In this document: piece after piece, positions 14,175-23,375 of the stretch
How positions within the stretch are numbered: position 1 is the first letter of the stretch
How the letters are laid out: each line of letters opens with the position of its first letter
DNA from: Salinibacterium xinjiangense
Lineage (GTDB): Bacteria; Actinomycetota; Actinomycetes; Actinomycetales; Microbacteriaceae
Reading direction: 5' to 3'
Length of the DNA: 64,000 bases
Assembly: GCF_014645015.1 (NCBI RefSeq)
Contig: NZ_BMLC01000003.1
Coordinates: forward strand, 245,109-309,108
Program-made: the position numbers and the translations under genes
Notes under the pieces: generated by a model
What the model saw: the letters and a program-made list of their open reading frames with translations, nothing else
Told to the model about the DNA's origin: nothing
Databases searched by the model: none

Positions 14175-15076
14175 CTTCTTTGGATTTCGGACCCCTTGTC
14201 CTCGGCGGCAATACCTTCGGCTGGACCTCGGACGTGAAGGAGAGTTTCGCCGTTCTCGACGCTTTCGTCGAGGCGGGTGGGCGCTCGATCGACACCGCCG
14301 ACGTCTACTCGGCGTGGGTTCCCGGCAACTCTGGCGGGGACTCCGAGGCGATCATCGGGCAGTGGCTCGCCGAACGCGGTGGGCGGGACGATGTTGTGAT
14401 CGCAACCAAGGTGTGTGCCTTCGAGTCTCGCCCCGGACTGTCTGCAGCGAACATCCGTGCGGCGGTCGATGAGTCGCTCACGCGACTTCAGACCGACTAC
14501 ATCGACCTTTACTACGCACATCGCGACGACGACACCATCACGCAGGACGAGTACGTCGCGGCGTTCGGGGCGCTTGTGGCCGAGGGGAAGGTCCGGGAGG
14601 TCGGGGCATCCAATTTCGCGGCTGACCGGTTGCGCAGCGCTGTCGACATTGCCGCACGGTCGGCGGTGGCGCCGTTCACGATCGCGCAGGACAAATACAG
14701 CCTGGTCGAGCGGGACATCGAGGGTTCCCTCCAGCCGACCCTGATCGAGCTCGGCATCGTCGAGCTTCCGTATTCGTCGCTAGCGAGCGGATTCCTGACG
14801 GGAAAATACCGTCCCGGTGTTTCGGTCGATTCGGCCCGAGCCGGTTCCGCGGGGGCCTACCTCGAACAGCCACAAAACGTCGAATTACTGGACACGCTCG
14901 ACGACATCGCGGCCGCCCACGGCACGAGTGTCACCGCAGTGTCCCTGGCGTGGTTGCGCCAGCAGGATGCCGTCGGAGCCCCCATCGCCAGCGCTAGAAC
15001 CGTGGAGCAGGTCGCGCCTCTCGTCGAGAGCTTCGAGCTTGTGCTGACGGCCGAGGAGCTGGCCAGGCTGGTCTAG
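14171..15076 (+). CDS. Aldo/keto reductase
   Basis: A 301-residue TIM-barrel oxidoreductase using NADPH. The catalytic tetrad is readable: Asp and Tyr in DTADVYSAW, Lys in IATKVCAF, His in YYAHRDDD. GKVREVGASNF and LIELGIVELPYSSLASGFLTGKY are the later family signatures. The start at 14171 (MTSLDFGPLVLGGNTFGWTS) matches relatives. The substrate is unknown. A second, longer aldo/keto reductase with the same FGWT start of the barrel lies at 33615-34733. Confidence 0.88.
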   Translation: MTSLDFGPLVLGGNTFGWTSDVKESFAVLDAFVEAGGRSIDTADVYSAWVPGNSGGDSEAIIGQWLAERGGRDDVVIATKVCAFESRPGLSAANIRAAVDESLTRLQTDYIDLYYAHRDDDTITQDEYVAAFGALVAEGKVREVGASNFAADRLRSAVDIAARSAVAPFTIAQDKYSLVERDIEGSLQPTLIELGIVELPYSSLASGFLTGKYRPGVSVDSARAGSAGAYLEQPQNVELLDTLDDIAAAHGTSVTAVSLAWLRQQDAVGAPIASARTVEQVAPLVESFELVLTAEELARLV

Positions 15077-15178
15077 CGACTCGCGTCGGGCTGCCCGGCA
15101 GCGCTGGCCAGGTGCGAACTGCCCCGCTGCTCAACCCGCCGCAGTGACGGGTGCCGCCAACCTGCTGACCGAGTAGAC

Positions 15179-15988
15179 CTAGCTGGCGCTTTTGCGTCGG
15201 CGCGTGCGTTCGGCATCCGCTTCGGCGGCAGCTTCGGGAGTCGGGGCCGTGCCTCCGCGGTTCTGTGGATGCCACCACTGCCCCGCACCGTCCACGGGGT
15301 AGTTCTTCTGCTCCTGGTCGACCATCTCCTGCAGTTTCTTGCGGAGGTCGGTCGTCGCTCGGATCACGTCATCTTCGGAGTCCACGATGATGGGAGAGCC
15401 GAACGTGAAACTGATCGGCACACCGAACCTCTCGAAAAACCGGGTCTTGTGCCCCTTGGTCATCAACCGCTGTCCACCCCACACAGACACGGGCAGGAGA
15501 GGTACGCCCGCTTCGGCGGCAAGCCTGGCGGCACCCGTCTTCAGTTCTCGGACGGTCATGGATGCGCTTACTCCGGCCTCGGGGAAAACGCCGATCAACT
15601 CGCCGCGCTTGAGCGCCGCGACAGCGTCTGCGTAGGCGCCAGCTCCTGCCTGCCGATTGACGGAGATGTGCTTCATGGCCCGCAGGAGCACCCCGACCAT
15701 GGGCTTGTCGAACGCTTCCTTCTTGGTCATGAACCTGATTCGTCGCCTGTTGTGCAGGAAGGTCATCCATTCGACGAGCGCGAACTCGAAGTAGCCGAAA
15801 TGCGTCATCGCGATGACCCCGCCGCCATGGTCGGGGATGTTCTCTGCACCGACCACCGTCGGCTTGAGTCGCCAGAATCCGAACAGCCCCCGACCGATGG
15901 CGACGGCCCCGCTGTAGACCGGTTCGAAGCCTGACGCGGTGTGATCCCTCGTCCGCTTTCGAGCGGTCGTTTTCGATGGCGTCGTCAT
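15179..15988 (-). CDS. PlsC-like 1-acylglycerol-3-phosphate acyltransferase
   Basis: A 269-residue acyltransferase of the PlsC family, acting at the membrane in phospholipid synthesis or lipid remodelling. The usual NHxSxxD motif appears as MTHFGYFEFALVEW, so the acidic partner of the catalytic histidine is Glu rather than Asp. The second signature, normally FPEGTRS, is FPEAGVSASM. The C-terminal tail is long and charged (EAAAEADAERTRRRKSAS). Start 15988 (MTTPSKTTARKR) was chosen over the longer frame. Because of the variant motifs, transfer to something other than lysophosphatidate is possible. Confidence 0.78.
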   Translation of the reverse strand: MTTPSKTTARKRTRDHTASGFEPVYSGAVAIGRGLFGFWRLKPTVVGAENIPDHGGGVIAMTHFGYFEFALVEWMTFLHNRRRIRFMTKKEAFDKPMVGVLLRAMKHISVNRQAGAGAYADAVAALKRGELIGVFPEAGVSASMTVRELKTGAARLAAEAGVPLLPVSVWGGQRLMTKGHKTRFFERFGVPISFTFGSPIIVDSEDDVIRATTDLRKKLQEMVDQEQKNYPVDGAGQWWHPQNRGGTAPTPEAAAEADAERTRRRKSAS

Positions 15989-16012
15989 GCTTCCAGAGTA
16001 GATGGAGAGCAC

Positions 16013-16440
16013 GCGGTGATCCCGTTAATCAGCCTCATTTGGCCGGTGCAAGCGACGTCGTGCATCTTCGCGCTTTTGTACCCCTATCTGGGGTCTATCT
16101 GGCGGGAATCTGTCGCCGGTAGTGTCTCTCTTGTCGAGATCGGGGGATCGAAGACAAATGTAGTGGCTCGGGGGAGCCACTACGTGACGTGTAGCGCCGG
16201 GCCGCTTCTGCAATCGCGGGGCCCGGCCTACTCCGTCAGCGCTATGCACCAGTGCTGTCCACCTTCTCCTCCATCACGTTTGGATTGGCTGTCTAACCAG
16301 ACCGCCTCGACATCCCGGATTTTGCTGACACCCGACGTCGAACACCGGGGTCGACGCCACTATCGATGTCACCCCTGTCATCGGGGATCGTCGGCCCCGG
16401 GCTACACCTCCCGGCGCTGGTCGGCGCACCCATGCACTTT
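16013..16440. other. Non-coding stretch with a perfect hairpin
   Basis: No gene is supported here. The clearest element is a 10-bp perfect stem with a GGGG loop (arms GTAGTGGCTC and GAGCCACTAC, 16160-16183). A second GC-rich inverted pair follows at about 16197-16228. No U-tract makes either a convincing terminator. Confidence 0.5.
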
Positions 16441-16564
16441 TCACGCTGCCATGAACACTCTCGACTTTCCGACGGGTTGCCAGATCTGCCGTGGGTCCAG
16501 TCCGGGCGGTGCGAGTAACCATGGCCGGCCGTCGATCATCCTGAGTTGATACGCGGATGAGTGC
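16441..16564 (-). pseudogene. C-terminal remnant of a DUF222/13E12-type HNH endonuclease gene
   Basis: The minus strand reads HSSAYQLRMIDGRPWLLAPP then GLDPRQIWQPVGKSR, ending at a TGA at 16441-16443. LRMIDGRP...LAPPxLDP is the typical C-terminus of 13E12-family HNH endonucleases. The catalytic HNH and the whole N-terminal DUF222 domain are missing; upstream the frame runs straight into the 129-bp repeat copy 1. This is a different paralogue from the larger remnant at 20.1-22.9 kb, whose C-terminus differs. Confidence 0.6.
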
Positions 16565-16693
16565 AGGATGCCGCTGTTGTCGCCATCCCGGCGGGCAGCG
16601 TCCACGATGGTCTGTCGCGGGATGATGCGCCTTCGGCGCCTAATTCGTTGCCTTCAATCGCCTTACCGGGCTCCCGAGTTACGTTGCTCATTC
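16565..16693. repeat. 129-bp direct repeat, copy 1
   Basis: This block is identical, base for base, to 20402-20530 and in the same orientation. It begins AGGATGCCGCTGTTGTCGCC and ends TTACGTTGCTCATTC. It contains a GCGCC-TTC-GGCGC hairpin. The two copies bracket the metNIQ operon, and both lie next to HNH-gene remnants. Its nature is unknown. Confidence 0.95.
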
Positions 16694-16933
16694 AAGTTCA
16701 GGCGGGCTTTCTGAGCAAATGTGACTCCTTTTCGCTCGCCCACAGCGAACGCTCTCTGTCATTATTCAGGCGGTGGCGAGGCGGCCGGCCGTCATCATTC
16801 AGGAGTTGGTGTGGCCCTCGAGGCGGATGTTGCTGGTGGGACAGCGCCCCTGCCCGCGAAGGTCATGCTGGCTCGATACTCCTGAATTCTGAAAGTCGCA
16901 CCGCCCAGGATCTTCTGAATGGGGGAAGGGGAA
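16694..16933. other. Non-coding stretch with two imperfect 20-bp direct repeats
   Basis: No gene is supported. Two 20-base segments sharing TCATnATTCAGG (16757-16776 and 16790-16809, spaced 33 bases) resemble the repeated ends of IS21-type elements, but no transposase fragment could be read, so the assignment is weak. Confidence 0.3.
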
Positions 16934-16964
16934 GGGGCCGGGATGCTGGCGGCATCACGGCCCC
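16934..16964 (-). terminator. Probable terminator of metNIQ operon
   Basis: A GC-rich stem of about 12 bp with one bulge (GGGGCCG-GATGC against GCATC-CGGCCCC) lies 12 bases after the metQ stop codon. Only a T-poor pyrimidine run follows on the minus strand, so it may be a weak or factor-assisted terminator. Confidence 0.5.
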
Positions 16965-16975
16965 CGCCAGTCGCG

Positions 16976-17899
16976 CTACCGCTCGTCGAGCGGCAGCAGG
17001 ATTCCCTTCACCGACGGGTCGGTCGCGAGGAACTCCTGCACGGCCGGGTCCTGGAAGGCCGCGATGAGCTTCTTGATGTTGGCGGTGTCGGCGTAGTCGC
17101 TGCCGATCGTGAGCTGGCCGGCGAAGTCGTCCGGTGCGGCGGGGGCGAAGATTTGCTGCTTGAGTGGGATCTTCGCGGCGAGGTAGTACTCGGTGTACCC
17201 GGCGGCGGCATCGATGTCGGGCAGTGCGCGCGACTGGGCGGCGAAGTCGAGCAGCACGAACTTCAGGTTTTTCGGATTCGACGCGATGTCGTCCTGGGTC
17301 GCGGTGCCGGCGGTTGCGCCGTCCTTGAGGGTGATGAGCCCGGCGTTCTCGAGCAGCCATAGCCCCTGTGCCTCGTTGGCGGGGTCGGAGTAGAGCGAGA
17401 TGGTGGCGCCATCCGGGATCTCCTCGACGCTGCCCCACTTCTCGGACCACAGCCCGAAGCCCCACCGGAAGACCGGTGTCGCCGCCGTCTCCCGGAAGTC
17501 GGGGTTGGCCTCGAGCACCTGGCTCAGCCAGAGCTTGTGCTGGTAGATCGTGCCGGCGACCTCGCCCTCGCTCACCGCACGGTTGATCGTGTTGCTGTCG
17601 GAGAGTCCCTTGAAGGCGACCGTGATCCCATAGTCGGCGGCCACGTTCTCGGCGACGAACTTTACGAGGGCCTGCTCGGCCGCGTTGCCCTCCGCCGTCG
17701 CGATGACGAGCGTGGCGCCGGCGACCTCGTTCGGCGAGACGCTCGGATTGAGCAGCGGGATGCCGATCGCGGCGGCGACCGCGACGACGGCCGCCGAGGC
17801 GCCGGCGATCCAGGGCCAGCGGCGGCGCGTCTTGAGCTCGAAGCCGTGCGGCTCGTCGGGGTCCTGCGAGGTGGGTTTGGTGATCGTGTCTTGGGACAT
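16976..17899 (-). CDS. metQ: MetQ/NlpA-family methionine-binding protein, membrane-anchored
   Basis: The substrate-binding component of a D/L-methionine ABC importer, 307 residues. After a charged N-terminus (KTRRRWP) there is one transmembrane helix, IAGASAAVVAVAAAIGIPLL, then the NlpA-type fold (AGATLVIATAEGNAAEQALV). The family signatures NPKNLKFVLLDFAAQSRALPD and GSDYADTANIKKLIAAFQDP are present. Unlike most MetQ proteins there is no lipobox cysteine, so it is probably held by its uncleaved N-terminal helix. It is the last gene of the metN-metI-metQ operon, 131 bases after metI. Confidence 0.85.
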   Translation of the reverse strand: MSQDTITKPTSQDPDEPHGFELKTRRRWPWIAGASAAVVAVAAAIGIPLLNPSVSPNEVAGATLVIATAEGNAAEQALVKFVAENVAADYGITVAFKGLSDSNTINRAVSEGEVAGTIYQHKLWLSQVLEANPDFRETAATPVFRWGFGLWSEKWGSVEEIPDGATISLYSDPANEAQGLWLLENAGLITLKDGATAGTATQDDIASNPKNLKFVLLDFAAQSRALPDIDAAAGYTEYYLAAKIPLKQQIFAPAAPDDFAGQLTIGSDYADTANIKKLIAAFQDPAVQEFLATDPSVKGILLPLDER

Positions 17900-18030
17900 G
17901 GTGTTTCCTTTCGAGGTGCTGGGGTCGTGGTGACGCAGTGGGGTGAACGGGCGGGTGGGCAGGGTCGAGCGGATGCCGGGTGGGCAGGCTCATGCCAGGC
18001 AAGGGTGGTTCGGTGGAAGCGTCCCCGCGC

Positions 18031-18798
18031 TCAGCCTGGGACGGGCATCGACTTCGCGCGCCTCGGCTGGCGCTCGCGTGCGTGCGGCGTCGCCAGTCGC
18101 ACGAGCCGGTCTCCGAGCAGCTGCACCGTGGCGACCGTCGCGACGAGGATGATGATCGTCGCGAGCATGACGGTGTTGTCGAAGCGCTGATAGCCGTAGG
18201 TCACCGCCACGTATCCGATGCCGCCGGCGCCGATCGTGCCGGCGATCGCCGAATACTCGATCATCGCGATCGTGTTGATCGTGAGCCCGCCGATGATCGC
18301 GGGCAGCGCCTCGCTCAACTGCGCGGTGCGGACGATCTGCAGAGGCGACGCCCCGGACGCCCTCGCGACCCGCACGAGCGTGGGCGATACGCCACGTAGC
18401 GAGTTCTCGACAATGCGGGTGAAGAACGCGATCCCGGCGATCACCATCGGCACGACGGCCGCGGCGATGCCGATGTTGGTTCCGGTGATGAAGCGCGTGA
18501 ACGGAACGATCGACGCCATCAGGATGAGGAACGGCAGCGACCGGCCGATGCTGACGATCCAGCTGATCGACTGGTGCAGCGCGGGGTTCTCGAATAGGCC
18601 GCCACGCGCGAGGTTGTGCACGAGCGCACCAAGCGGCACCCCGACCAGCACGACGATGACCATGACGATGCCGACCATGATGAGGGTGTCGATCAGCGCC
18701 GGGAACACGAGCGCCGGAATCTCGGCGATCGGCACGTTGTTGTTCGTCGGCAGGGCCGTGCGGATGCCGGTGGCGAGCACGCTCAGGGCAGCGCTCAT
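18031..18798 (-). CDS. metI: Methionine ABC transporter permease MetI
   Basis: A 255-residue permease with five or more membrane helices (ALIDTLIMVGIVMVIVVLVG, ISWIVSIGRSLPFLILMAS and others). The cytoplasmic coupling loop SNSLRGVSP...RASGASPLQIVR and the IEYSAIAGTIGAGGIGYVAV segment are characteristic of MetI. It forms the membrane channel for methionine import with MetN and MetQ. Its ATG overlaps the metN stop by four bases. The C-terminus is arginine-rich. Confidence 0.9.
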   Translation of the reverse strand: MSAALSVLATGIRTALPTNNNVPIAEIPALVFPALIDTLIMVGIVMVIVVLVGVPLGALVHNLARGGLFENPALHQSISWIVSIGRSLPFLILMASIVPFTRFITGTNIGIAAAVVPMVIAGIAFFTRIVENSLRGVSPTLVRVARASGASPLQIVRTAQLSEALPAIIGGLTINTIAMIEYSAIAGTIGAGGIGYVAVTYGYQRFDNTVMLATIIILVATVATVQLLGDRLVRLATPHARERQPRRAKSMPVPG

Positions 18799-19943
18799 AC
18801 GACACGCTCCAGTGCGGGCGCGGTGGACGAGATTGAGGCCGCCGGGGCTGTGTCGCCTGCCGCGGCCGGGGCGGACGCATCCGCGGACGTCGAACGCCCG
18901 CCATCCGAGGTCCTCGAAGATTCCTCCGCCGACCGGTCGGCCAGAGCCGCAGCCTCCGGATCCTCGGGCACGGGCCGGGCATCCAGCCCCAGGCGGCGGG
19001 CCGTCTCGATAAGCAGGGCCGGGTCGACCGCGCGCACGCCGATGCTCGCGTGCCCGACCGTCTGGCCGGCGACGGTCTCGATCGACGCGCCAAGCACGGA
19101 GACCGGGGCATCGAGCTCGCTGGCCAGCCGTAGCACCCAGTCGGCCGGCACCGCGCCGGAGGTGTAGCTCACGAACCAGTGCGTCTCGCCCAGCTGCGGT
19201 GTGGCGTGCGGGCGGGCCGGGCGGAGGGCGCGGCCGAGGGCGGATGCCGGGTCGCGCAGCAGGTCGACGATGCGCCCGGACTCGACGATGTGGCCGTGGT
19301 CGAGTCGGGCGACGGCGTCCGCAACCTGGAGCACGGTGTCCATCTCGTGGGTGATGAACAGGATGGAGAGGTCGAGGTCGTCACGAAGCTCCTTGAGCAG
19401 GGAGACGATGGATGCCGTCGACTCGGGGTCGAGGCCGGATGTCGCCTCATCGGAGAGCAGCACCTGGGGGCGCAACGCGAGCGCGCGGGCGATGCCGACG
19501 CGCTGGCGCTGGCCGCCGGAGAGCTGGTGCGGGTAGTGTCCGGCGCGGTCGGAGAGCCCGACGCGGTCGAGCAATTCGGCGACGCGGCGCTTCGCCTCGG
19601 CGGTGGTGACGCCGAGGTATTCGAGCGGCAGCGCGACATTCTGGGCGGCCGTGCGACGGCTGTAGAGGCCGTCAGACTGGAAGATCGTTCCGATGCGGCG
19701 GCGGGCCGCGCGCAGCTGGCGCTCGCCGAGCTGGGAGAGGTTCTCGCCGTTGACAAGCACCGAACCGGACGTGGGTCGCTCGAGCAGGTTGACGCACTGC
19801 GCGAGGGTCGACTTGCCGGCGCCGCTCGGTCCGACGACGGCGAAGATCTCGCCGGCGTCGACGCGGAAGTCGAGCCGGTCGAGGACGACCGTCGCCTTGT
19901 CGCCGTGACCGTAGACCTTGGTCAGTTGTTCGATGCTGATCAT
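18795..19943 (-). CDS. metN: Methionine ABC transporter ATP-binding protein MetN
   Basis: A 382-residue ATPase. Walker A is GPSGAGKST at about residues 39-47, the signature LSGGQRQRVGIARAL follows, and Walker B is VLLSDEATSGLDPEST, with the switch histidine in FITHEMDTV. The C-terminal NIL domain (about residues 255-330), which binds methionine and inhibits transport when it is plentiful, begins near THWFVSYTSGAVPADWVL. The final 60 residues are a low-complexity Ala/Ser/Asp-rich extension. Start 19943 (MISIEQLTKVYGHGDK) matches family members. It heads the operon. Confidence 0.93.
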   Translation of the reverse strand: MISIEQLTKVYGHGDKATVVLDRLDFRVDAGEIFAVVGPSGAGKSTLAQCVNLLERPTSGSVLVNGENLSQLGERQLRAARRRIGTIFQSDGLYSRRTAAQNVALPLEYLGVTTAEAKRRVAELLDRVGLSDRAGHYPHQLSGGQRQRVGIARALALRPQVLLSDEATSGLDPESTASIVSLLKELRDDLDLSILFITHEMDTVLQVADAVARLDHGHIVESGRIVDLLRDPASALGRALRPARPHATPQLGETHWFVSYTSGAVPADWVLRLASELDAPVSVLGASIETVAGQTVGHASIGVRAVDPALLIETARRLGLDARPVPEDPEAAALADRSAEESSRTSDGGRSTSADASAPAAAGDTAPAASISSTAPALERVV

Positions 19944-20033
19944 GGCCGTGAGCCTATTGTCGGCGCGGCTCGGCACCTAACCGCGGCGAAACAATGTTGC
20001 GTCGCGTGACGATGTGTGACGCGAACGACTTCC

Positions 20034-20122
20034 GCTGGTTGAGCAGGTCTCGGAGCGATCGTCTCGAAATCAGAAGATGCGGCGGAGTTTCGACTCGTGC
20101 CAGAGCGCGTTGCTCAACCAGC
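20034..20122. repeat. REP-like intergenic inverted repeat
   Basis: Perfect 12-base arms GCTGGTTGAGCA (20034-20045) and TGCTCAACCAGC (20111-20122) enclose GGTCTCGGAGCGATCGTCTC. From general knowledge, similar GGTTGAG...GTCTCGAAA intergenic units are common in Microbacteriaceae genomes. It lies between the metN start and the end of the HNH pseudogene, whose frame now runs through it. Confidence 0.65.
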
Positions 20123-20289
20123 AGAAAACAGCCCAGTGGTCGTGGTGGTCTCGGTACGGGAAGTTTCCCGCCGCGCTTGGGTTTGCGGCTGGGGTCGATG
20201 CTCGCTGGTGGCGTGAACCAGCGCACGTTGTCGACGACCTGCACGCTCCAGCCTCTATGGATCACGTGGTGGTGGCCGGTGCAGAGCAG

Positions 20290-20304
20290 CGTCCCGTTGT
20301 CGAT
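20290..20304. repeat. 15-bp direct repeat, left side of DUF4062 insert
   Basis: CGTCCCGTTGTCGAT is identical to 21630-21644. On the minus strand both encode Ile-Asp-Asn-Gly-Thr of the HNH protein, as expected if a 15-bp target was duplicated on insertion. Confidence 0.85.
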
Positions 20305-20401
20305 AATTTGCTAACACGACCCCCAACCCTGGCCTGTGGTGAGGGTATCCATCAATGCCGGCGCCTCCGGCGGCAGCTCCGCAGCCTTCCGCATGGCACA
20401 G

Positions 20402-20530
20402 AGGATGCCGCTGTTGTCGCCATCCCGGCGGGCAGCGTCCACGATGGTCTGTCGCGGGATGATGCGCCTTCGGCGCCTAATTCGTTGCCTTCAATCGCCT
20501 TACCGGGCTCCCGAGTTACGTTGCTCATTC
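20402..20530. repeat. 129-bp direct repeat, copy 2
   Basis: Identical to 16565-16693 over 129 bases, same orientation. This copy lies inside the segment inserted in the HNH gene, just after the DUF4062 gene. Its minus strand stays open with high-GC third positions and runs on as CAMRKAAELPPEAPALMDTL, possibly a lost gene's end. Confidence 0.95.
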
Positions 20531-20556
20531 GAGTGAAGAGGCGGCTTCGCCGCTGC

Positions 20557-21549
20557 TCAAGTTGCATATATCGAAGTGGTCGATTTCTCATACTCGAGAA
20601 CATCGTCCAACTTGAGCCCAGACAATTCGAGAATCTCCCCAAGTTCGTCTCGAAGCTGTTCGTACGTGCTTGTCATTTGGCGGCGCCTAGCGTTGGTGAC
20701 TGCTCCTGAACTTGAGATTATGTACTGCGTCTCAGTGTCCTCAGGGCCCCCGTATTCTCCGATTACTTTGCCCTGTGCCATTGCGCACTCTTCAACTGTG
20801 GGCCACCGCAACACCTGGCCCGGGGTTGGGCTCCCGCCGAAGTACTGAAAATCTCCTATAACCGAGTTGCCGATCATGGCTTGAAGCAGATTCACGTATA
20901 CCCGGTCCATCTGCGTTCCAACAGATCGGAGGATCTGAGAGGCGATTAGCTCCACACGCGTGTTCACGCTCGTGAGCACCGCTAGTGTGTCGACCACCTG
21001 GGCCTCGCGTGAGTTGCTGGAGAGGTGATCGTGCATCATTCCCGCCCACTGCGCTCGCAAATAGTTCTCTATGTCCGAGATCGTCCGAAATGGCACGAGC
21101 GCATTGTTCTCAGTCTGAGTGCGAACAGAATCGATGAACTCGAAAATTTTCACGCTATCGGCATTGGGAAACTTCATTTTGGCTAACGCTTCAGGCGAAC
21201 CTAGGTTCGCCTGATAAACGGCATAGTCACTCAACGTCGATTGCTCAACCAAGGCAAAGACTGGCACCTTGTCCTTCACCGCCCGCTGGTATTCGGCATT
21301 AGTCACCGATTCGCTGGACCCTGGCAGTGCCATGCCGTAACGTCCACCAATCAGCAGAATAAGTATGTTCGCATTTGATACTTCCTGGAGGCAGGATTCC
21401 GCGGCCGTTGTCTTCGGGTTGTAGTAAACCGCGCCAGCCTCACTCAAAACTGAAATGTACCCAAACTGTTCAATGAATCGCTTGAGCGACTCCCGGGCGT
21501 AGCGAAGATCGTAGAAAGTTGAGCTAACGAAAACCGTGGGAGCTGCCAT
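20557..21549 (-). CDS. DUF4062-domain protein (TIR-like fold, putative defence)
   Basis: A 330-residue protein. The N-terminal 100 residues are DUF4062: TVFVSSTFYDLRYARESLKR, then FGYISVLSEAGAVYYNP, and ILILLIGGRYGMAL with SVTNAEYQRAVKDKVPVFAL. DUF4062 is a TIR-like, nucleotide-binding-type fold often found at the N-terminus of anti-phage and NTPase proteins. The C-terminal 200 residues are helical and unrecognised, with no NTPase motif. A strong GGGAGG lies eight bases before the ATG at 21549, which decides the start. The gene is visibly richer in A+T (one 60-base line is 53% GC) than its neighbours. It sits alone in an insert inside an HNH pseudogene, suggesting transfer. Confidence 0.8.
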   Translation of the reverse strand: MAAPTVFVSSTFYDLRYARESLKRFIEQFGYISVLSEAGAVYYNPKTTAAESCLQEVSNANILILLIGGRYGMALPGSSESVTNAEYQRAVKDKVPVFALVEQSTLSDYAVYQANLGSPEALAKMKFPNADSVKIFEFIDSVRTQTENNALVPFRTISDIENYLRAQWAGMMHDHLSSNSREAQVVDTLAVLTSVNTRVELIASQILRSVGTQMDRVYVNLLQAMIGNSVIGDFQYFGGSPTPGQVLRWPTVEECAMAQGKVIGEYGGPEDTETQYIISSSGAVTNARRRQMTSTYEQLRDELGEILELSGLKLDDVLEYEKSTTSIYAT

Positions 21550-21629
21550 GAGGTAATCCTCCCATTCACCAGACCAGTCGACGGAGCACACACGCAATGC
21601 GCGATTCTGCACAGGTCCTATTGGCGACT

Positions 21630-21644
21630 CGTCCCGTTGTCGAT
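21630..21644. repeat. 15-bp direct repeat, right side of DUF4062 insert
   Basis: Second copy of CGTCCCGTTGTCGAT. The distance between copies is 1,340 bp. Bases outside the 15-mer differ on each side. Confidence 0.85.
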
Positions 21645-22952
21645 GTTGGTCTTACCGCGGTCGGCGAACTCTTTCACGTGGTGGGCGTGGCACCAATTCG
21701 GTGGTGCGTGACAGCCGTTCCAGATGCATCCGCCGTCTACTGCGGCAAGCGCGAGCCGTTGCTGACGGCTGAACAATCGTTGGGTGCGGCCCAGCTTGAG
21801 CACTTCACCGTGTGACCCGAGCGTGAGGATTTTTATGCCGCCGTCACAGGCCTGCTCTCGGATGCTGGCGGTCGAGACCGGCTCTTCGACATCATCGAGC
21901 CAGCCGACCCCCGAACCGCTGTCGAGATCACTCAACCTGATCGCCGCCACCACGGCGGTGAGGCTTCGCATGATGCCGGGTTGCCCTTCCGACGATCGCA
22001 CGCCGGCTGAGAGCAGCCCCATGATGACGTCGAACTGTTTCTGCTCGAGGGTGCGCGGGTCGCGCGCCGCGCCGGTCAGTCAGTGTTTCGGCATCGGCGG
22101 GCGCATCCTGCACGTCGAGGAAGCGTGGCGCGACGTTCGGACCGGCTCGTTCGGCGAGAGCCGCTTTCAGGAGGGCCGCGTTGGCGGGGTCGGCGTAGCC
22201 ACCGAATCGGGTCAGTCCATGCTCATCTCGGCCGATCCAGAACGCGCGGCGCGTGTGCAGCACGTCGGCACGCGGCTCGGCCCCGTCGGGATCGAGCAGT
22301 TCGCGCCACACTCGCGCCTGCACGGCGAGCAGGTCTGCCGGAAGCGTGAGCCCCGCCTCGACGAGGGCCGATTCGGCGACCTGGAGGCGCTCGGGTAGGG
22401 CGTGGCGTTGCGCCGCCTGCGCGAGCATGTGGATGATGGCACTCGCGGCATCCACTCCGAGGTGGCCGGAGACGATCGCGCCAGCCACCACCGGGAACTC
22501 GGCGGGCATGATTTGCCCGTCGAGGCACACTCGGGCGCGGATGGCGCGACCGAGCTTCACCCGCCGACTGGCCTCGCGCTGCTACACGAGCGTCAGCTTC
22601 TCCAGGAGTTGGATGCCTCGAGTCTCACCCAGTCGTTGCGCGAGGCCCGACTGTCCGAGTTCGTGGCGCGAGCGCTCGTCTACTTCGGCAGCGGCCAGTG
22701 CCTGCAGTGCGTCGGTCAGTCGACCCATCCCTTCGACTTCGCGGGTGAGATCGAGCAGCTCCATGTCTCCGGAGCCGACCATACCGTCGCGCGCGACATC
22801 GGCGAGCATCGAGCCCACCCTGTCGAGAACCTGCGCTGCTTCGGTCAGGGCCATACTCTCGCAGCAGCCACCGACATTGCATTTATCCGAGTCAGAAGGT
22901 GAATAGTGCTGTGGATAAACCCGAAGTGTTGGCGTTGTTGAGAAGTAGAGCC

Positions 22953-23375
22953 CTAGACGTCGTATCTGTCCGGCTCTGGCCCCACCCGGAACGAGCGCCC
23001 ACTCAGGGAGGTGGGATTCACGCGAACGTACGTATATTTGAGCGTCGGAATCCACGGCGTCAGGGGAAGCGTATCTGCCCGGTCGATCTCGGCCTGGTGG
23101 TCGAGTCGCGCGGCCGATCCTTTCACGACGACACTCCACGCTGTCGTATCGTCGTAGCCGTCGATCTCAAACGCAACTCTGGCATTCACGGTCAACTCCA
23201 CGAGTTTGGTGCCGGCGGCAGTCCTGAACAGCAGGCTCCCATCGTCCACGATGTAGTTCACCGGAAAGATGTCGAGCTCACCTGCGGCAGCCACCGCGAG
23301 CCGCCCCATCGGTGTCTTGTCCAGCAGCACCCACATCTCGGGTTCGTTCAATGCGATGACCTGCGCCTCGTCCAC
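22953..23375 (-). CDS. Pyridoxamine 5'-phosphate oxidase-like flavin-binding protein
   Basis: A 140-residue split-barrel protein. MGRLAVAAAGELDIFPVNYI and GSLLFRTAAGTKLVEL are the usual core of the PPOX-like family that binds FMN or F420, followed by ARVAFEIDGYDDTTAWSVVVKG. The substrate is unknown. The GTG at 23375 was chosen because GGAAGGAG lies four bases upstream. It is transcribed away from rpsO. Its partner cofactor cannot be told from sequence, although actinobacteria commonly use F420. Confidence 0.78.
   Translation of the reverse strand: MDEAQVIALNEPEMWVLLDKTPMGRLAVAAAGELDIFPVNYIVDDGSLLFRTAAGTKLVELTVNARVAFEIDGYDDTTAWSVVVKGSAARLDHQAEIDRADTLPLTPWIPTLKYTYVRVNPTSLSGRSFRVGPEPDRYDV

Follow-up and report, generated by a model that had tools for sequence, protein, structure and literature searches.

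The window analysed here, a 64,000-nucleotide stretch of Salinibacterium xinjiangense DNA, holds a DUF222–HNH endonuclease gene whose frame is split at the codons for IDNGT, with a complete and A+T-rich DUF4062 gene between the two apparent halves (Table 1). A preliminary description of these letters had noted this split, and both sides do continue in frame once the insert is omitted. It had likewise reported the paired 15-mer CGTCCCGTTGTCGAT, which has no other exact copies in the window, the low G+C content of the DUF4062 gene, which we find to be 52.9% vs 64% for the window (the insert as a whole has 55.1%), and a lack of mobility genes inside the insert, where the ORF list indeed holds no transposase or integrase. 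The “129-bp block” that it mentioned exists too and is actually 133 bp long, in two copies that are 3.84 kb apart. Across 199 genomes of the same bacterial family, the own genome included, the 15-mer occurs in six exact copies, two of them being the window pair and four lying outside the own genome.

Table 1. Features of the interrupted HNH locus, in window coordinates
Feature	Position	Strand	Remarks
Native HNH C-half remnant	about 16437..16564	-	abuts repeat copy 2
133-bp direct repeat copy 2	16565..16697	-	99% identical to copy 1
MetN–permease–MetQ-like transporter operon	16976..19976	-	between the two repeat copies
HNH C-half, different subfamily	20119..20304, end approximate	-	37–38% aa identity to G023 orthologue
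15-mer copy 1	20290..20304	+	start of foreign HNH C-half; exact match
Left attachment arm	20310..20323	-	HNH strand GGGGTCGTGTTAGC
133-bp direct repeat copy 1	20402..20534	-	part of block and DNA beyond; 99% identical to copy 2
Conserved block core	20505..20538	-	adjoins cargo; matched in nine other family genomes
DUF4062 cargo gene	20557..21549	-	330 aa from ATG; Pfam PF13271, E 3.6e-21
Right attachment arm	21613..21638	-	native HNH-N junction; HNH strand AACGG-GACGAGTCGCCAATAGGACCT
15-mer copy 2	21630..21644	+	end of native HNH N-half; exact match
Native DUF222–HNH gene, N-half	21645..22906, start approximate	-	PF02720; one stop, one frameshift

The locus had been read as a single HNH gene with a 1,340-bp insertion, a reading that the protein identities to the orthologue in the same-genus genome G023 (locus L187) contradict, as the flanking halves derive from different HNH genes. 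The native N-half (21645 onward) is 77–80% identical to this orthologue, whereas the C-half that follows the insert belongs to a different subfamily and has its best match, at 58% aa identity, in L078, within the set tested. A remnant of the native C-half, without the first codons after the site, is found instead beside the second repeat copy, where it matches L187 at 74.6% of nucleotides over 130 bp (71% aa). The foreign C-half and the native C-half elsewhere together rule out a clean insertion of a single 1,340-bp unit into a single HNH gene; the position of the native remnant means that the native gene is interrupted by about 5.07 kb (16565–21634). This gene is a pseudogene for other reasons too, with its stop and its frameshift both upstream of the site. 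Downstream of the foreign HNH end lies a 16-bp inverted repeat, TTCCGCTGGTTGAGCA / TGCTCAACCAGCAGAA (94%, window 20030–20126), which resembles an intergenic repeat.

The preliminary description had suggested looking in relatives for an uninterrupted HNH gene, and one was found at the orthologous place in G023, where the order is ADH, HdeD, rpsO, PPOX, then the HNH gene open over 466 codons, then plsC. The window reads, by comparison, native HNH-N, right arm, DUF4062, repeat copy 1, left arm, foreign HNH-C, metN–permease–metQ, repeat copy 2, native HNH-C remnant and plsC. Because the C-side HNH half is foreign, the window copy is no clean insertion, and because the native 3′ HNH end lies 4 kb off, past the operon and a second partial copy of the block, the locus has also been rearranged. 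The genes of the operon, which we take to encode MetN, a permease and a MetQ-like protein of a methionine transporter, are missing between HNH and plsC in G023. The closest MetN homologues found in the genus (G006 and G021, about 70%) belong to operons located elsewhere, with no HNH gene, Rep or recombinase within the 19 kb examined around them. A long-standing association of metNIQ with the HNH gene was also considered, and G006 and G021 give it no support.

Such an arrangement might in principle be an assembly error at the 133-bp repeat, which would have brought in the metNIQ segment together with the foreign HNH end: direct repeats of 99% identity flank the segment, and the two closest relatives found have the operon elsewhere. 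The repeat copies differ in one base, however, and their flanks are unlike, and a search of the own genome with 20100–21900 gave only two copies of the repeat, which makes us regard an error of this kind as very unlikely.

Rep–recombinase elements in HNH genes

The part of the insert next to the cargo has relatives. Window positions 20465–20560 have matches of 75–85% in nine further genomes of this bacterial family, and some part of 20305–20560 is matched in 19 of the 199 genomes (own included), several of the matches being short and chance-like. At least 1.2 kb is common beyond the block in five of the matched places, and about 0.7 kb in a sixth (L037). Each of those five places has a gene for a protein of some 260 aa that carries the motif (G/D)HGLHAHF; in both cases tested against Pfam this is a REP_ORF2-G2P protein (PF23343; E 4e-16 and 5e-16), and no solved structures were found for it. 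Its convergent neighbour, of about 470 aa, has Resolvase, Recombinase and Zn-ribbon domains (four of four tested) and is, by this domain content, a predicted large serine recombinase. Where the preliminary description had spoken of an unidentified mechanism, complete members of the family thus encode both a large serine recombinase and an HUH Rep.

A scan of named genomes returned 67 Rep loci, mostly from actinobacteria with a few from MAGs labelled Chloroflexi or Acidobacteria, and 63 of them have a convergent recombinase no more than 1 kb away from Rep. Read in the orientation of the HNH gene, a complete member consists of right arm, cargo, block, HUH Rep, convergent serine recombinase and left arm, with the left arm adjoining the start of the recombinase. 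The block, CTTNACTTGAANNAGCAACRTAACTCG, is recognizable in the 3 kb upstream of Rep at 52 loci, with agreement at 23 or more of its 34 positions, a cut-off equal to the best score of 20 simple shuffles per locus, and 15 of the 67 have no clear block. A hairpin at the block has modest support (31% and 25% of 51 reach z below −2), and we rejected a strongly folded element on this ground. At L126 and L136, Rep relatives are accompanied by a weak recombinase match that lies on the Rep strand and is not convergent, perhaps representing a sister element type. L113, from a record titled Bacillus sp. AZ43 (organism unverified), is an actinobacteria-like element, and its label may be wrong. Plasmids gave two matches to Rep, at 34%, both from Cupriavidus.

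Searches with the two HNH halves of the window turned up six elements, in five genomes of the bacterial family, that split an HNH gene at the window's codons; one genome, G215, holds two such elements with different cargo. An HNH N-half is present at 31 of the 67 Rep loci, a C-half at 21 and both at 18; where there is enough flank (47 loci), 17 have both halves and 26 at least one. The C-half is missing in the usual orientation at 46 of the 67 and the N-half at 36, which may reflect short, divergent or cut contigs, or other targets. Membership of the 18-locus set was defined by tblastn matches to both HNH halves in the element's usual orientation, and three loci with reversed matches stand outside it. 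One of them, L088 (Homoserinibacter gongjuensis), has both halves in opposite orientation, split at the same place, so that the orientation of integration is not fixed; L114 and L119 have weak reversed N-half matches. The 18 HNH-bounded elements measure about 3,698–5,802 bp (median 4,130) and hold one or two cargo ORFs, a Rep of about 259 aa and a recombinase of about 468 aa, the ORF calls being partly short or ambiguous, as in L090, L096 and L109.

The 18 junctions are alike. On one side the HNH gene runs to ...AACGG (AACCTC in some) and is followed by RCAARTTnnnAATACnACCC; on the other side most read CATGGGGTCAYATTAGC, 11 bases, AACGG, then HNH. The two arms of the junction consensus, GGGGTCAYATTARC and GTTAATRYGACCCC, repeat each other in inverted orientation, in the manner expected for serine-integrase attachment sites. 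The portion of PMC3783163 available to us describes an attP half-site to which an integrase is bound. The run common in register to both junctions is 2–11 bp long with a median of 6, three elements sharing only 2 bp and the longest shared run of L091 and L135 not being at the core, and such a short run would fit site-specific recombination with a short core. Measured against these 18 related elements, the 15-bp identity in the window overstates the recombination core. Since the HNH queries end at the site, alignment alone leaves the codon unfixed and it is the junction consensus that fixes it. On this sequence evidence, many members lie in HNH genes of the DUF222/13E12 type, which they interrupt where the conserved DNG of the HNH domain is encoded.

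The prophage phiRv1 uses a serine integrase together with a REP13E12 site, and a helper phage could package rolling-circle products, so the elements might be phage satellites or degenerate prophages and not independent elements. At 3.7–5.8 kb, however, the 18 HNH-bounded elements are too small for a set of virion genes, and a search of 50,697 phage records with one Rep as query gave no relative of it; 32 pattern matches in viral contigs yielded none that was confirmed. We consider an origin of this kind somewhat unlikely.

The window copy and its rearrangement

Both arms of these elements can be recognized in the window. The right arm falls precisely on the HNH-N junction, where the DUF222–HNH gene has its IDNG codons, and agrees with the family consensus AACGGCRCAARTTNNTAATACNACCC at 17 of 23 positions, the next best place in 15001–23000 reaching 14. 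The left arm agrees with GGGGTCAYATTAGC at 12 of 14 positions, a score attained at one other place in window 15001–23000. This second left-arm-like sequence, at 16715–16728 (-) and about 20 bp from repeat copy 2, has no HNH core after it and is possibly due to chance.

The backbone, on the other hand, is gone. Neither Rep (PF23343) nor a serine recombinase is present in the ORF list of the insert itself, and the own genome has no family Rep at 1e-20 and no close family recombinase, the best match being 3.9e-9. With Rep and recombinase missing, the window copy is a remnant and not a complete member, and with the backbone lost it is unable to move by itself. Other copies seem degenerate as well: L050, L055 and L056 have a right arm, cargo and block, no clear left arm and no Rep, except for a truncated Rep in L055. 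The same-genus recombinases of G005 and G026 (E 2.7e-78 and 7.8e-73) have no HNH half within 1.5 kb on either side.

The earlier proposal of a mobile cargo that lands in HNH genes has to be divided. For the family as a whole it appears well supported by sequence comparison, given the 18 of 67 loci with both halves, the empty site in G023 and the swaps of cargo. For the window copy it stands less well, as Rep and recombinase are missing, the locus is rearranged and two different HNH genes have been joined.

Two simpler histories of this copy have to be weighed. In the first, ordinary rearrangement, the DUF4062 gene would have been trapped by homologous recombination among multicopy HNH genes, with the 15-mer being nothing but conserved HNH coding sequence. 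The origin of the halves from two HNH genes is in line with this, as are the four further DUF222 genes in the own genome that are free of internal stops and the other fragments and the 133-bp repeat at the locus. Yet the arms and the block are common to complete Rep–recombinase elements at the same codons in other genera, and the right arm exactly at the HNH-N junction is left unexplained, so that we deem this history highly improbable. In the second, the 1,340-bp insert would be a mobile miniature element, integrated in trans by the recombinase of a complete relative. Such an element would account for the retention of both arms with block and cargo, and the similar Rep-less or Rep-truncated copies at L050, L055 and L056 give it company; against it, the flanks are different HNH genes, so the present ends do not come from one simple insertion, and no close family recombinase exists in the own genome. 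This second history seems to us unlikely.

We instead consider it very probable that the window holds a disabled HNH-site element that lost its backbone, kept its arms, block and cargo, was later rearranged, and carries a cargo that is most likely of defence type. As gene content and junctions suggest, the recombinase would join a circular form of the element to an HNH gene at the DNG codons, thereby splitting the gene, while Rep would copy the excised circle, for which the conserved block is perhaps the rolling-circle origin. In the window, Rep and recombinase would have disappeared, leaving both arms, the block and the DUF4062 cargo in place. A further event, most simply recombination at the 133-bp repeat, may then have added the foreign HNH 3′ end and metNIQ, and the same event would have separated the native HNH 3′ end. 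The incoming molecule would have comprised the repeat, the left arm, the foreign HNH end and metNIQ, and have recombined into the repeat of the older remnant; more speculatively, a molecule of this composition could arise by Rep copying past the end of an element.

Cargo exchange and cargo content

Closely related elements seldom carry the same cargo: among 21 elements there are 42 pairs whose Reps are at least 70% identical, and one of these pairs has similar cargo. In the seven related pairs compared at the DNA level, similarity stops at the right arm in all three whose HNH N-halves are alike enough to judge; in all six for which block sequence is available it starts again no more than 15 bp from the block, and in four of those six it lapses again between block and Rep. 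As similarity ends at the right arm and resumes at the block, cargo changes between two fixed points, and the comparison shows what we interpret as a cargo slot, from right arm to block, that is exchanged independently of the Rep–recombinase backbone.

In nine of the 18 HNH-bounded elements the cargo contains domains, some of them generic, that also occur in known or candidate defence proteins. These are a TIR protein by PADLOC (L080), AAA/nSTAND (L081, same contig as L052), PIN_8 (L084, same contig as L053), AIPR (L085 and L110), AAA_22 (L092), AAA_15/AAA_21 with DUF3226 (L097), a CAP12-type TIR (L101) and RelA/SpoT with PDC-S33 (L135). Cargo without any domain found occurs in seven of the 18; L096 has only a weak OloA match, and L109 fell outside the cargo domain scan for having no slot ORF of at least 120 aa, and other limits show a 494-aa minus-strand ORF there. 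The AIPR cargoes of L085 (Labedella phragmitis) and L110 (a MAG labelled Acidobacteria) are strongly similar (E 0.0).

Over all loci, 52 hand-picked cargo proteins (the window's included; mean 409 aa), taken as the longest non-overlapping ORFs so that some may be wrong, L079 and L094 especially, also include ThsA_Macro, SIR2_2, SLATT and a second DUF4062 protein (L087) by Pfam. PADLOC models matched number 176 for these 52; the 55 flanking ORFs (mean 497 aa), of which each locus with sufficient flank supplied one, match 32 and form a simple control that is unmatched to the cargo in length or function. For the flanking ORFs, the 25 listed of 60 Pfam families are mostly metabolic or housekeeping, and a few helicase-type defence models also match these control ORFs.

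In the accessible text of a 2026 preprint (PMC13174449), DUF4062 proteins are described as TIR-like NADases that take part in abortive infection. The window protein has the DUF4062 domain in common with the Swarozyc system of that source, and its sequence match to KpSwz is weak (E 0.26). In a weak pairwise alignment, the column of a KpSwz Glu, which we infer to be the catalytic E97, is Asn in the window protein; Glu occupies the equivalent column in 9 of 11 aligned family homologues, and the window protein has a Glu two residues later. No PADLOC model matched the protein, in a 2023 library that is older than Swarozyc. A search of 299 genomes of the family gave, besides the own copy, 12 distant matches to the domain, spread over 11 genomes (best E 2.1e-6), and none of 21 pattern matches in genome contigs was confirmed as a close relative.

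Its domain family makes the window protein most likely a defence protein of the abortive-infection type, which is the least secure step of our account; defence is a plausible and fair guess, and NADase activity should not be assumed. The second DUF4062 protein, at L087:3423–4490 in Microbacterium sp. cf046 (Pfam E 1.5e-26), lies beside Rep and recombinase. Another genome of the family (L061) has a DUF4062 gene at a distance of about 1 kb from an HNH gene with no interruption at the site, which may be coincidence.

Significance and relation to known systems

Defence genes are gained and lost fast, and how single defence genes travel is poorly known. The family described here amounts to a vehicle of 4 kb, with a fixed address and a defined slot for its cargo, that occurs in many actinobacterial genera, and the window copy illustrates the decay of this vehicle, with the cargo left as an apparently orphan defence gene. 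Slot ORFs without known function could guide to undescribed defence genes, the recombinases could be a supply of enzymes with a conserved protein-coding target, and the family could account for a part of the disrupted HNH genes seen in these genomes. We put forward tentatively, at slightly less than even odds, that widespread and apparently undescribed minimal elements with a near-universal DNG landing site shuttle single, exchangeable anti-phage genes from one bacterium to another, and that overrun by Rep can capture chromosomal neighbours, of which metNIQ between its two repeat copies would be a trace; “minimal” would here mean, with the same reserve, a serine recombinase, an HUH Rep, the block and one cargo slot.

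In a literature search outside of which most subscription journals lay, we found no description of minimal Rep–recombinase elements with a defence slot in HNH genes, and several known systems share some of their traits. IS91 and ISCR elements move by an HUH transposase alone, with no serine recombinase, unlike the relatives found here, in which Rep is paired with a convergent serine recombinase at 63 of 67 loci. The phiRv1 prophage resembles them in its serine integrase and its attachment site of the 13E12 family (REP13E12). It has the gene content of a phage, whereas the one large gene of the insert is DUF4062 and its relatives have cargo, Rep and recombinase.

The serine-recombinase IMEs, as described in the main text of PMC5704250 so far as it was available, have an RCR-type initiator and cargo and disrupt a dispensable gene; recombinase, initiator, cargo and gene disruption are thus shared with the elements here. 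That text gives mostly 5–15 kb for IMEs, stresses resistance cargo and, in the same portion, leaves HNH genes unmentioned (PMC5704250). Neither the insert nor its relatives have the FtsK/SpoIIIE-type Tra gene of an AICE, judged from ORF lists alone. The nearest precedent we found is an AICE, Faln2929 of Frankia alni, for which the part of PMC3218068 at hand describes a serine recombinase convergent with tra and rep, the disruption of a putative endonuclease gene, and excision without a known directionality factor. Faln2929 differs in having tra and a RepSA-type Rep, in contrast to the elements of about 4 kb with a PF23343 Rep that we describe, and it resembles them, so far as that source goes, in combining a recombinase convergent with rep, a disrupted endonuclease gene and a rolling-circle Rep (PMC3218068).
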